A stretch of 64,000 nt of DNA from Hyphomicrobiales bacterium (GTDB taxonomy: Bacteria > Pseudomonadota > Alphaproteobacteria > Rhizobiales > Rhizobiaceae). This document shows positions 45,902-49,358 of this stretch, in pieces. Position 1 is the first letter of the stretch. Every line of letters begins with the position of its first letter. Made by a program: the position numbers and the translations under genes. The notes below the pieces were generated by a model that worked only from the letters and a program-made list of their open reading frames with translations, was not told where the DNA came from and did not search any database. The stretch is taken from assembly GCA_900465685.1 (NCBI GenBank), contig UEGR01000013.1, positions 248,001 through 312,000 on the forward strand. Direction: 5' to 3'.

Positions 45902-46636
45902 ATGACCGAGAAAAAGACGGCGCTCGTTATCAGTGCGCATGCGGCCGATTTTGTCTGGCGCTGTGGCGGGGCAATCGCGCAGCACGCCGGGCTTGGATAT
46001 CACGTAACCGTCGTCTGCCTTTCCTTTGGTGAGCGTGGAGAGTCAGCAAAGCTCTGGAAAGATGCAGGCATGACGCTGGAGCGCGTCAAGGCGGCGCGCC
46101 GTGCGGAATCGGAAAAGGCGGCAAAGGCTCTTGGTGTGCATGACCTCGTTTCGTTCGATCTTGGCGACTATCCGCTGCGTCTGAACGATGAGGACAAGTT
46201 CAAGCTCGTCGATGTAATCCGCGATGTGCAGCCGGCTTTCATGCTCAGCCATTCGCAATATGACCCTTACAACACCGACCATATGTATGCGACCGAGATT
46301 GCGCTTGAAACGCGCATGATCGCGCAGGCCTGGGGGCATAAGCCGGGTGAGAAAGTGCTTGGCGCGCCGCAGCTTTATCTGTTCGAGCCACACCAGACCG
46401 AACAGATGGGCTGGAAGCCTGACACGTTTTTAGACATCACGTCGGTATGGGACAAGAAATGGGCCGCCATCCAGTGCATGGAAGGGCAGGAACATTTGTG
46501 GGCCTATTACAAGAATGTCGCCGAAAATCGCGCGAACCATTTCATGCGCAATTCGGGCGGGCAGTCCGGTGGCCGCAAGGCAAAATATGCCGAAGGCTTC
46601 CAATCGGTATTTCCACGTACCGTGGATGAGCTTTAA
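45902..46636 (+). CDS. galB: 4-oxalomesaconate hydratase, PIG-L/LmbE family
   Basis: A 244-aa zinc-dependent protein of the PIG-L fold. The zinc motif is altered from AHPDD to AHAADF (H13, D16), which, together with SFGERGESAKLW, LSHSQYDPYNTDH and VWDKKWAAIQCMEGQEHLWAYY, closely follows GalB of Pseudomonas putida as I remember it. GalB hydrates 4-oxalomesaconate to 4-carboxy-4-hydroxy-2-oxoadipate in gallate degradation. AGAGGAGAG lies before ATG 45902. Next come the dioxygenase, galC and galD. Confidence 0.9.
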   Translation: MTEKKTALVISAHAADFVWRCGGAIAQHAGLGYHVTVVCLSFGERGESAKLWKDAGMTLERVKAARRAESEKAAKALGVHDLVSFDLGDYPLRLNDEDKFKLVDVIRDVQPAFMLSHSQYDPYNTDHMYATEIALETRMIAQAWGHKPGEKVLGAPQLYLFEPHQTEQMGWKPDTFLDITSVWDKKWAAIQCMEGQEHLWAYYKNVAENRANHFMRNSGGQSGGRKAKYAEGFQSVFPRTVDEL

Positions 46637-46665
46637 ACAGCATGGCGTATGACAGGGAGGACGCC

Positions 46666-47628
46666 ATGGAGCGGAGTTTTGATATTGCCCACCTCGCGCA
46701 TGTCGAGGTGTATACCGACAAATTCGAGGAAAGCCTCGATTTTTTCACGCGCATCTACGGGCTGAAACTGTCCGGCATGGATGAGCAGTCCGCCTATTTG
46801 CGGGCATGGGACGATTATGAATTTCATTCGCTCAAACTGACCCGGCATCACACCACTGGCGTCGGACATATCGCTTATCGCGTAGCGTCGCCGGAAGCGT
46901 TGGAGCGCCGTGTGAAAGCGATCAGCGAAAGCGGCTACAAGGTCATTGGTTGGGTGGGGGGTGATCGAGGACATGGCCGAGCGTTCCGGTTTGAGGATCC
47001 GTTCGGCCATGTCTTCGAGATCTATTGGGATACCGTGCGCTATACGGGACAAGGTGCGGATGCGCCGGTGCTCAAGAACACCGCAAGCTCTTACACCGGC
47101 GCGGCACCGCGACGGATCGATCATCTCAATCTCCTTTGCAGCGACGTAACGGAGTTCCGCAGGTTTATGGAAACCTGTCTTGGGTCGCGTGTCACGGAGA
47201 TGATCCAACTCGATAATGGTCGCATCGGTGGTGCGTGGTTCACCATCAACAACAAGACCTACGATCTCGCCTGCACGGAAGAGCATGGGGGTGGCCATGC
47301 GCGTTTGCATCATCTCACCTATGCCACGGATCAGCGAGAAGACATTCTGCGTGCAGCCGATATCTTCCTTCAAAATGGCGTTCATATCGAGACCGGTCCG
47401 CACAAGCACGCCGTGCAGGGCACGTTCTTTCTCTATGTCTGGGAACCGGCGGGCAATCGTGTGGAACTGGCCAATTCAGGCGCACGTCTGATCCTTGCGC
47501 CGGACTGGGAGCCGATCGTCTGGACGGAGTCGGAGCGCAAAAAGGGACAGGCCTGGGGTCTGAAGACAATTGAGACGTTCCACACCCATGGAACGCCCCC
47601 GGTCGCAGGAAGTAACAAGGAGCATTGA
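46666..47628 (+). CDS. Type I extradiol ring-cleavage dioxygenase (XylE/VOC fold)
   Basis: A 320-aa two-domain vicinal-oxygen-chelate enzyme. The 2-His-1-Glu iron site is complete: H153 (DHLNLL), H215 or H216 (LHHLTYAT) and E267 (NRVEL). This is almost the spacing of catechol 2,3-dioxygenase XylE (H153, H214, E265). The C-terminus PIVWTESERKKGQAWGLKT is typical of this group. Start ATG 46666 with GGGAGG upstream. It sits between galB and galC. It should open a catecholic ring next to the hydroxyls; gallate or protocatechuate is suggested by the neighbours, but catechol-type substrates cannot be excluded. Confidence 0.88.
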   Translation: MERSFDIAHLAHVEVYTDKFEESLDFFTRIYGLKLSGMDEQSAYLRAWDDYEFHSLKLTRHHTTGVGHIAYRVASPEALERRVKAISESGYKVIGWVGGDRGHGRAFRFEDPFGHVFEIYWDTVRYTGQGADAPVLKNTASSYTGAAPRRIDHLNLLCSDVTEFRRFMETCLGSRVTEMIQLDNGRIGGAWFTINNKTYDLACTEEHGGGHARLHHLTYATDQREDILRAADIFLQNGVHIETGPHKHAVQGTFFLYVWEPAGNRVELANSGARLILAPDWEPIVWTESERKKGQAWGLKTIETFHTHGTPPVAGSNKEH

Positions 47629-47629
47629 A

Positions 47630-48301
47630 ATGCCAGTCGTCGTTCAGAATATCGCGCGGGCCAAACCGGAAGTCATTGATGGACTGGCGGCAGCAGGTGT
47701 GGCAACCGTCCACGAAGCGCAGGGACGCAAAGGTCTGCTGGCAAGCTATATGCGCCCGATCTATTCCGGCGCACAGGTTGCCGGATCGGCCGTGACAATT
47801 TCGGCAGCGCCCGGTGACAACTGGATGATCCATGTGGCGATCGAACAGTTGCAGCAAGGCGATATTCTGGTTCTGGCGCCAACAAGCCCCTGCGAGGATG
47901 GCTATTTCGGCGATCTGCTTGCCACTTCGGCACAGGCGCGGGGTTGCCGCGGATTGATCATTGATGCGGGTGTGCGTGATGTGCGCGATCTGACATCTAT
48001 GGGCTTTCCAGTTTGGTCAAAGGCTGTCTTTGCGCAGGGAACGGTGAAGGAAACGCTGGGGTCGATCAATGTTCCTGTCGTCTGTGCCGGAAGCTATATC
48101 GAGGCGGGCGATATTATCGTGGCCGACGATGACGGTGTCTGTGTCGTGAAGCGCTCCGAAGCCGAAGACGTGTTGAGTGCAGCACAAACGCGCCTTGCCA
48201 ATGAGGAAGCCAAACGCGCGCGGCTGGCGGCGGGTGAACTGGGCCTCGACATCTACAAGATGCGCGAACGTCTGGCGGAAAAGGGACTCAAATATGTATG
48301 A
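47630..48301 (+). CDS. galC: 4-carboxy-4-hydroxy-2-oxoadipate aldolase (LigK/GalC type, RraA fold)
   Basis: A 223-aa class II pyruvate aldolase. Seen: GDLLATSAQARG, the catalytic Arg-Asp in DAGVRDVRDL and the C-terminal YIEAGDIIVADDDGVCVV. LigK/GalC/ProA enzymes split 4-carboxy-4-hydroxy-2-oxoadipate to pyruvate and oxaloacetate and can decarboxylate oxaloacetate. Start ATG 47630, 7 nt after AAGGAG; an open frame from 47570 lies inside the dioxygenase gene. It overlaps galD by 8 nt. Confidence 0.9.
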   Translation: MPVVVQNIARAKPEVIDGLAAAGVATVHEAQGRKGLLASYMRPIYSGAQVAGSAVTISAAPGDNWMIHVAIEQLQQGDILVLAPTSPCEDGYFGDLLATSAQARGCRGLIIDAGVRDVRDLTSMGFPVWSKAVFAQGTVKETLGSINVPVVCAGSYIEAGDIIVADDDGVCVVKRSEAEDVLSAAQTRLANEEAKRARLAAGELGLDIYKMRERLAEKGLKYV

Positions 48302-49358
48302 GGACGGCATTCCCTGCCTCTGGATGCGGGGAGGGACATCCAAGGGCGCCTATTTTCTGGCCGCCAACCTGCCGTCTGATAGGCAACAGCGTGATGTACT
48401 GCTGCTGGGCGTCATGGGTTCGCCGGATGTTCGCCAGATTGACGGAATCGGCGGCGCCGACCCACTGACCTCGAAAGTGGCCATCCTGTCGCCTTCCAGC
48501 CGCGATGACGCGGATGTGGATTATCTCTTTTTGCAGGTCTTTGTGGATCAGCCGCTTGTCAGTGATGCGCAGGGTTGCGGAAATATTCTGGCAGGTGTTG
48601 GACCGGCGGCCATTGAAATGGGACTGGTGGCTGCGAAGGACGATGTGACGCCGGTGCGCATTCACATGGTCAATTCGGGTGAGATTGCGCTTGCCCAGAT
48701 TTCCACTCCCAACCGTCGCGTCAATTATGCCGGTGATACTGCGATTGCTGGCGTTCCGGGCACCCACGCCGCCGTACCTCTTCTGTTTATGAATGTCGCC
48801 GGCTCCATGTGCGGAGCGCTGTTGCCGACTGACAACGAAATGGACGTCATAGACGGTGTCGAAGCAACCCTTATCGACAATGGAATGCCTTGCGTCATCA
48901 TGCGCGCTGCCGATTTCGGCCTGACAGGCATGGAGACCCGCGAAGAGCTGGAAGCGAATAACGATCTTAAAGCAAAGCTTGAAGTGATCCGGCTAAAGGC
49001 AGGCTCATTGATGAATCTCGGCGATGTGCGCGAGGCGTCCGTACCGAAAATGACGCTCGTTTCTGCGCCCACTGCCGGAGGTGCCATATCGACGCGCAGC
49101 TTCATTCCGCATCGTGTTCATGCTTCCGTCGGTGTTCTGGCGGCGGTGACGGTCGCGACAGCAACACGCTTGCCCTCCAGTCCCGCAGCTAAGCTGGTGA
49201 ACGCACCGCATGATGGTCGTTATGCGATTGAACATCCAAGCGGCGCGATGGAGGTTTTCCTCGATCTGGCGGAAGACGGAGCTGTCCAAGGCGCAGGCAC
49301 GATCCGGACAGCGCGCAAACTGTTCGAAGGCAGGGTTTTTCCGGCGGCGCGTGAGTAG
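48294..49358 (+). CDS. galD: 4-oxalomesaconate tautomerase, PrpF family
   Basis: A 354-aa protein of the PrpF/diaminopimelate-epimerase fold. IPCLWMRGGTSKGAYFL, GSPDVRQIDGIGGADPLTSK, QGCGNILAGVGP and TRSFIPHRVHASVGV match GalD of Pseudomonas putida, which converts the keto and enol forms of 4-oxalomesaconate before hydration by GalB. A cysteine at the proton-transfer position is present in QGCGN. Start ATG 48294 inside the end of galC. It is the last gene of the plus-strand galB-dioxygenase-galC-galD unit. Confidence 0.9.
   Translation: MYEDGIPCLWMRGGTSKGAYFLAANLPSDRQQRDVLLLGVMGSPDVRQIDGIGGADPLTSKVAILSPSSRDDADVDYLFLQVFVDQPLVSDAQGCGNILAGVGPAAIEMGLVAAKDDVTPVRIHMVNSGEIALAQISTPNRRVNYAGDTAIAGVPGTHAAVPLLFMNVAGSMCGALLPTDNEMDVIDGVEATLIDNGMPCVIMRAADFGLTGMETREELEANNDLKAKLEVIRLKAGSLMNLGDVREASVPKMTLVSAPTAGGAISTRSFIPHRVHASVGVLAAVTVATATRLPSSPAAKLVNAPHDGRYAIEHPSGAMEVFLDLAEDGAVQGAGTIRTARKLFEGRVFPAARE

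Follow-up and report, generated by a model that had tools for sequence, protein, structure and literature searches.

Which enzyme opens the aromatic ring ahead of galB, galC and galD when a genome offers no recognisable dioxygenase of the LigB family, and can a protein of another fold have taken its place? The question is raised by a 64,000-nucleotide stretch of DNA from a Hyphomicrobiales bacterium (GenBank assembly GCA_900465685.1, contig UEGR01000013.1, positions 248,001 to 312,000 of the forward strand; hereafter the window), in which a gene for an extradiol dioxygenase of the VOC fold (type I) sits between galB and galC and forms a tight unit with them and galD on the plus strand at 45902-49358. 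We propose that the product of 46666-47628 is probably a gallate dioxygenase on the type I (VOC) fold, and thus a non-homologous replacement of the type II enzymes GalA and DesB. It is the gene context that suggests the substrate, the regiochemistry and the product, 4-oxalomesaconate (OMA).

A dioxygenase gene within a conserved gal unit

The original prediction had placed galB, an XylE-fold dioxygenase, galC and galD in one unit of tightly spaced genes, and the open reading frames (ORFs), profile scores and shared strand confirm this; from galB to galD in order, the genes are separated by 29 nt, by 1 nt and by an 8-nt overlap. The equivalogs for 4-carboxy-4-hydroxy-2-oxoadipate (CHA) aldolase and OMA tautomerase are both matched above their cut-offs, which assigns the unit to the gal lower pathway. 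For the galB product, the proposed role of OMA hydratase is suggested by its family and its place; its NCBIfam matches are thiol-metabolism deacetylases, far below their cut-offs. An alternative in-frame ATG for the dioxygenase is possible at 46642.

Is the dioxygenase gene a member of this unit or a chance neighbour? We examined the best 80 loci from a scan of GTDB genomes, a sample that holds the closest loci only and some species more than once. By tblastn, the order galB-VOC-galC-galD on one strand is kept in 68 of the 80 loci, with galB as the opening gene (again 68/80); the four genes are uninterrupted in 66, and in the other two (L042 and L068) a tannase-family gene splits galC from galD. 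Two further loci have VOC-galC-galD, and six have a different arrangement with at least one gal gene. Because the order is kept in 68 of these closest loci, the unit stands above chance, and we dropped the chance-neighbour reading. The closest named relative, Brucella haematophila (L001), carries the corresponding run of genes, 89-100% identical, which places the window in an Ochrobactrum-type member of Brucella or a near neighbour of it.

A survey of 397 genomes across the order found a VOC relative (E ≤ 1e-90) in 58, an OMA tautomerase (E ≤ 1e-110) in 94 and both in 46. Where the VOC protein is at least 62% identical to that of the window, the tautomerase is present in 38 of 38 genomes and lies within 10 kb in 24; below 62% (20 genomes) it is present in eight and within 10 kb in four, and among genomes with no VOC protein at E ≤ 1e-90 it is present in 48 of 339. 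The thresholds of 62% identity and 10 kb, like those of 230 and 240 bits used below, were chosen after the lists had been viewed. Eight of the 20 less similar VOC loci were inspected; gal genes flank four of them (L142-L144, L161) and are missing from the flanks of the other four (L145-L148). Nine loci in which a VOC gene of at least 62% identity lies away from galD have varied surroundings: DUF1932 and LigI in L154, DUF1932 and MetF in L156, MobA and a TRAP transporter in L157, a TRAP transporter in L158, LigM and MetF in L160, and no recognised neighbour in L149, L153, L155 and L159.

At the level of the class, VOC orthologs (>490 bits) occur in only five of 54 genomes with a tautomerase-family match, a category that includes weaker PrpF relatives. 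Among 398 genomes of the phylum there are 20 matches at E ≤ 1e-60, 19 of them in the same class; the sole match outside it is 45% identical and has His at position 199 (see below). Plasmid records add VOC relatives from Pantoea (78% identity), Thermus oshimai (59%) and Roseomonas (57%). On the plasmid of the gammaproteobacterium Pantoea sp. At-9b (L184), the VOC gene at 8983-9963 lies among transporter genes, and no gal gene was recognised within 19 kb.

Fold, iron site and a tyrosine in place of a histidine

The dioxygenase matches PF00903 in a Pfam search, and PF02900 (LigB) is not among the matches. Its predicted structure (pLDDT 85.2, from 24 sequences) aligns over almost its full length with type I enzymes in a structure search, the best matches including 7q2a, 3lm4 and 1mpy. 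The protein thus has both the VOC fold and the 2-His-1-Glu iron site of type I enzymes. The original prediction of a complete site at H153, H215-216 and E267 stood except in one detail; the second ligand is His216, and His215 is its conserved neighbour. H153, H216 and E267 are invariant among the aligned sequences and, counted on the alignment to homoprotocatechuate 2,3-dioxygenase (HPCD), equivalent to H155, H214 and E267 of that enzyme, and W191, H248 and Y257 align with HPCD W192, H248 and Y257.

One position departs from the known pattern. His199 of XylE and His200 of HPCD are the catalytic second-sphere histidine, which in type I enzymes serves as the acid-base in O2 activation; a gap-free local alignment puts Tyr199 of the window enzyme at the HPCD position. 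All 158 locus rows that reach 55% identity carry the tyrosine (135 different sequences; certain genomes were entered twice). Of the 11 more remote rows, in which L174 and L175 represent a single gene, 10 have His; L091, at 23% identity, does not. T243, H246, A249, Q251, R291 and Q295 accompany Tyr199 and occur in none of the 11 distant rows, T243 being replaced by Ser in two rows; K247 and T193 accompany it as well and are found in some of the distant rows. In a tree of 53 rows, rooted at its midpoint and with several long outgroup rows, a single branch supported at 100/99 separates the 44 rows of the tyrosine clade from the rest. This clade-wide tyrosine in place of the catalytic histidine of other type I enzymes, which the original prediction had not noted, is new here. 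The HPCD variant H200F can reportedly turn intradiol with some substrates.

Could this simply be an ordinary catechol 2,3-dioxygenase, present in the operon by chance or for a side route? Relatives among the matches listed are labelled "VOC family protein", "VOC domain-containing protein", "catechol 2,3-dioxygenase" or "bphC", and the closest solved folds are catechol enzymes. Set against these are the kept position within the gal unit and the score against the catechol 2,3-dioxygenase profile TIGR03211, which at 295.3 bits lies below the cut-off of 320.2, although the 68% identical L086 protein passes it with 334.5 bits. The second-sphere histidine is also missing from the window enzyme, and relatives adjoining dmpG in Thermus thermophilus and Geobacillus carry that histidine and lack Tyr199. 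We consider the catechol alternative highly improbable. The genome that holds the window encodes one further relative of the dioxygenase, 30% identical.

A proposed one-step route from gallate

How would such an enzyme serve the gal genes? Fe(II), held by H153, H216 and E267, would chelate two adjacent hydroxyls of gallate, and O2 would be inserted into the C3-C4 bond, which is equivalent to C4-C5, to yield 4-carboxy-2-hydroxymuconate, the enol of OMA. GalD would tautomerise this product, GalB would hydrate it and GalC would cleave the result to pyruvate and oxaloacetate. In other words, gallate would be converted to OMA in one step that feeds the gal genes, and since the product carries no aldehyde, a semialdehyde dehydrogenase and a pyrone hydrolase would not be needed. 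This proposal follows the original prediction, in which a VOC-fold enzyme, rather than one of type II, makes OMA from gallate or feeds it otherwise; the lack of a PF02900 match in the genome, the link to OMA genes seen in the majority of the nearest relatives and the neighbours in some loci that might supply gallate all support that prediction, with the catalytic step itself being what we infer from them.

Gallate also offers a possible reason for the tyrosine. With its three hydroxyls adjacent, the bond broken by extradiol cleavage at one pair is the one broken by intradiol cleavage at the other, so that both cleavages give one product; this convergence could, by a further step of reasoning, explain why the loss of the catalytic histidine has been tolerated. 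The structures themselves make the two products equivalent; that the enzyme takes advantage of this is our guess. A bolder idea, which we put forward tentatively and with more doubt than belief, is that the clade exchanged its acid-base histidine for tyrosine because the cleavages of gallate converge, that the result is a non-homologous gallate dioxygenase freed from the choice between extradiol and intradiol, and that an enzyme labelled as catechol-type or in general terms is a main gallate route of many Alphaproteobacteria.

Type II enzymes and other ring-opening genes

A simple replacement should leave no type II enzyme behind, and the original prediction had asked for LigAB- and GalA-type genes to be sought elsewhere in the genome. 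Our search of this genome for ring-opening families covered PF02900, PF00775 and a VOC query. PF02900 gave no match, as predicted, and matches in four of 14 control genomes; a LigB query taken from L019 gave no match either. We therefore set aside a hidden type II gallate dioxygenase, the PF02900 profile having found none. In the genomes of the order survey with a VOC protein of at least 62% identity, a LigB-like protein (at least 230 bits) occurs in six of 38, leaving 32 without one; it occurs in four of the eight galD genomes with a VOC protein below 62%, and in 11 of 34 galD genomes that lack the VOC protein (34 of the 48 were tested). The VOC gene is thus usually, but not always, without a type II partner, and mutual exclusion of VOC and LigB works only partially as a test, since both are present in 6/38 and 4/8 and neither in 23/34.

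The same genome carries the protocatechuate route of pcaG (TIGR02423, 250 bits) and pcaH (TIGR02422, 352.1 bits), both above cut-off, with adjoining ORFs that we read by eye as pcaC and pcaD. For the lig pathway of protocatechuate 4,5-cleavage, the search covered LigAB and LigI and did not find the set; the query for LigI, the hydrolase of 2-pyrone-4,6-dicarboxylate (PDC), gave only a partial match of 25.6 bits. On the Roseomonas mucosa plasmid (L186), a run at 5025-7972 holds LigA-, LigB- and VOC-type dioxygenase genes with an alpha/beta hydrolase gene, so that two unrelated ring-opening enzymes stand side by side.

Which substrate?

Several neighbours are candidate sources of gallate. One is a gene of the PF07519 tannase/feruloyl esterase family, which separates galC from galD in Paracoccus shandongensis and P. 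salipaludis (L042 and L068, 2/80 loci) and follows directly 3' of galD on plasmid pAt of a walnut Agrobacterium strain (L183). LigM, a vanillate/3-O-methylgallate O-demethylase, is encoded in the flanks of nine of the 80 loci and a MetF-like protein in four; the LigM-like protein scores 543 bits to 5x1i, and the L053 copy reaches 637.2 bits against a cut-off of 580. Sphingobium SYK-6 demethylates syringate to gallate with DesA and LigM, the latter converting 3-O-methylgallate to gallate, and then opens the ring with DesB (PMC6888825).

The walnut plasmid is of interest in its own right. In this Agrobacterium tumefaciens isolate, the gene run and the tannase-family gene are found together on a plasmid typed conjugative, and plasmids from walnut isolates with an identical-scoring match account for 13 of 60 plasmid rows among the matches listed.

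Might 3-O-methylgallate itself be the substrate? A DesZ-like cleavage would give 4-carboxy-2-hydroxy-6-methoxy-6-oxohexa-2,4-dienoate (CHMOD) or PDC and bring syringate carbon into OMA. The LigM and MetF-like genes agree with this, as do L156, whose flank has formyltransferase- (PurU-like), methionine-synthase- and MetF-like genes (the last below the Pfam cut-off), and L021, L156 and L160, which have O-demethylation or one-carbon genes and no gal gene in the flank. An adjoining LigM, however, would convert 3-O-methylgallate to gallate beforehand, LigM is absent from the flanks of 71 of the 80 loci, and the tannase-linked loci indicate gallate itself. We judge 3-O-methylgallate cleavage to be very unlikely.

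Protocatechuate is the main rival, above all for distant members such as that of Thermus oshimai. Here, a type I protocatechuate 4,5-dioxygenase would yield 4-carboxy-2-hydroxymuconate semialdehyde, to be oxidised to PDC or OMA by the DUF1932 protein, or in some loci by an aldehyde dehydrogenase, and passed on by a LigI-like enzyme and GalBCD. None of the supply neighbours is exclusive to gallate. PF07519 also covers feruloyl esterases. A MobA-like hydroxylase gene is found in eight of the 80 flanks, with a ninth at 25% identity; it scores 715 bits to 2dkh, a 3-hydroxybenzoate hydroxylase, and the product of that enzyme is protocatechuate. So is the product of QuiC, and a QuiC-like gene lies close to the window unit. 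LigM, too, yields protocatechuate by acting on vanillate, in the account of the same SYK-6 source (PMC6888825), and a Neorhizobium genome paper ascribes such gal genes to protocatechuate meta-cleavage (PMC11356111). A DUF1932 homologue is encoded in 44 of the 80 loci at any identity (38 at 40% or more), and the gallate scheme does not explain its presence. LigI-like genes occur in eight of the 80 flanks, and in L142-L144 such a gene lies beside galB, galC and the VOC gene. T. oshimai has the VOC gene, galB, galC, the DUF1932 gene, an HpaE-like aldehyde dehydrogenase gene (under its cut-off) and an annotated 4-hydroxybenzoate 3-monooxygenase gene together.

Other counts tell against gallate more generally. 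Four of the 80 loci lack any gal gene in their flanks. The 23 of 34 tested VOC-lacking galD genomes that are also without a LigB-like protein mean that galD alone is no proof of the ring-opening step, and LigB-type and VOC genes are found together in L019, L031 and Roseomonas mucosa, which simple replacement would not lead one to expect. LigI fails to separate the substrates; with LigI-like proteins of at least 240 bits in 19 of 38 genomes with VOC proteins of at least 62% identity, in six of the eight galD genomes below 62% and in 13 of 34 VOC-lacking galD genomes, it is similarly common with and without the VOC protein, and we gave it up as a marker.

What, then, speaks against protocatechuate? 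The route from protocatechuate 4,5-cleavage to OMA is described as requiring both LigC and LigI (PMC6888825). The genome of the window has no notable PDC hydrolase, and, of the 38 genomes whose VOC protein is at least 62% identical, 19 are without one that reaches 240 bits. The four-gene unit holds no dehydrogenase gene, and no homologue of DUF1932, LigI or the aldehyde dehydrogenase is found in the flank of 23 of the 66 loci with the uninterrupted unit (15 of the 54 with full flanks). Furthermore, this genome already has pcaHG. On balance we regard a type I protocatechuate 4,5-dioxygenase as unlikely, and gallate as the probable substrate.

Surrounding genes in the window

The genes around the unit are listed in Table 1. 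In 60 of the 80 loci there is a homologue, with 40% identity or more, of the LysR regulator whose two helix-turn-helix (HTH) stretches make up a duplicated DNA-binding domain. DUF1932 dehydrogenase genes accompany OMA-pathway genes from the kin of Brucella to T. oshimai (L185, 10855-11622). The ABC system, which is divergent from galB, is possibly an aromatic acid importer; permease and binding-protein homologues occur in 10-11 of the 80 loci and are also annotated beside galB on Agrobacterium plasmids. A homologue of the second LysR regulator lies near the unit in L068 and in L074 (Rhizobium johnstonii 3841), whose dioxygenase ortholog, at 8001-8945 of that locus, is 82% identical to the window enzyme. 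The match of the QuiC-like protein to NF042435 spans residues 1-619 of 631 and lies under the cut-off of 1200. The plus-strand genes of 49391-58744 are perhaps an island for the uptake and conversion of quinate/shikimate or dehydroshikimate. Besides the AroE-like and QuiC-like proteins, ORFs there read by eye as an SMP-30-like protein and as another ABC transporter of the branched-chain type.

Table 1. The four-gene unit and its surroundings, in window coordinates
Feature	Position	Strand	Evidence
DUF1932/NAD-binding dehydrogenase	38774..39658	-	PF09130, PF03446
LysR regulator, 438 aa, two HTH_1 stretches	39655..40971	-	PF00126 twice
Branched-chain-type ABC uptake system (binding protein, two ATPases, two permeases)	41042..45608	-	ORFs
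galB-like, PIG-L-family, proposed OMA hydratase	45902..46636	+	PF02585 78.7 bits
VOC-fold type I extradiol dioxygenase, proposed gallate dioxygenase	46666..47628	+	PF00903 83 bits
galC, CHA aldolase	47630..48301	+	TIGR02798 390.1 bits, cut-off 304.5
galD, OMA tautomerase	48294..49358	+	NF033377 501.7 bits, cut-off 440
Second LysR regulator	49391..50320	+	PF00126, PF03466
Shikimate-dehydrogenase-like (AroE-like) protein	50351..51328	+	PF08501 62.5 bits; below NCBIfam cut-offs
QuiC-like 3-dehydroshikimate dehydratase, TIM barrel and HPPD-like half	56849..58744	+	NF042435 689.8 bits

Implications and comparison with known enzymes

The fold is known and the pathway is known; their proposed pairing is new. 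If our proposal is true, a central pathway of plant phenolics acquired its ring-opening step two times or more, each time on another fold. Genomes thought to encode a catechol enzyme may then belong to users of gallate or tannin, and reconstructions of lignin and tannin pathways that use LigB-family genes alone would miss them. The natural change of histidine to tyrosine also offers a direct test of what steers cleavage to the extradiol or the intradiol side, which until now has been approached with engineered HPCD variants (structures of H200Q, N, E and C are among the structure-search matches).

How does the enzyme compare with those already described? Among the open-licence papers listed, none turned up with a gallate dioxygenase of the VOC or type I kind, subscription papers being mostly outside this coverage. 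Of the solved structures, the one closest in sequence (353 bits) is PDB 9wgj, deposited as "Catechol 1,2-dioxygenase", which shares with the window enzyme the tyrosine at 199, K247 and A249 and, by alignment, lacks its H246 and Q251; no organism, substrate or paper was found for it, and it is not among the 50 listed structure-search matches. PraA, the protocatechuate 2,3-dioxygenase of Paenibacillus, is, by its description in PMC13254512, likewise an extradiol enzyme acting on a benzoate with vicinal hydroxyls, but its 2,3-cleavage leads to 5-carboxy-2-hydroxymuconate-6-semialdehyde (5-CHMS), off the route to OMA.

The catechol 2,3-dioxygenases (AphC, LapB, XylE) and HPCD share the fold, the metal triad and the equivalents of His248 and Tyr257 with the window enzyme, which in contrast has Tyr for their catalytic His, Thr at the position of HPCD Arg243 and a link to tricarboxylate rather than aldehyde genes. 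GalA of Pseudomonas putida and DesB of Sphingobium SYK-6 share with it the proposed reaction, gallate to OMA, and the steps downstream. These two are of the type II LigB family: PMC3962378 treats DesB, LigAB and DesZ as type II enzymes related to one another, and AromaDeg places gallate dioxygenases under LigB, citing that of P. putida (PMC4250580). The enzyme of the window, with its VOC fold and no PF02900 domain, is of a different fold and family, and would thus bring gallate to the same intermediate by another protein altogether.

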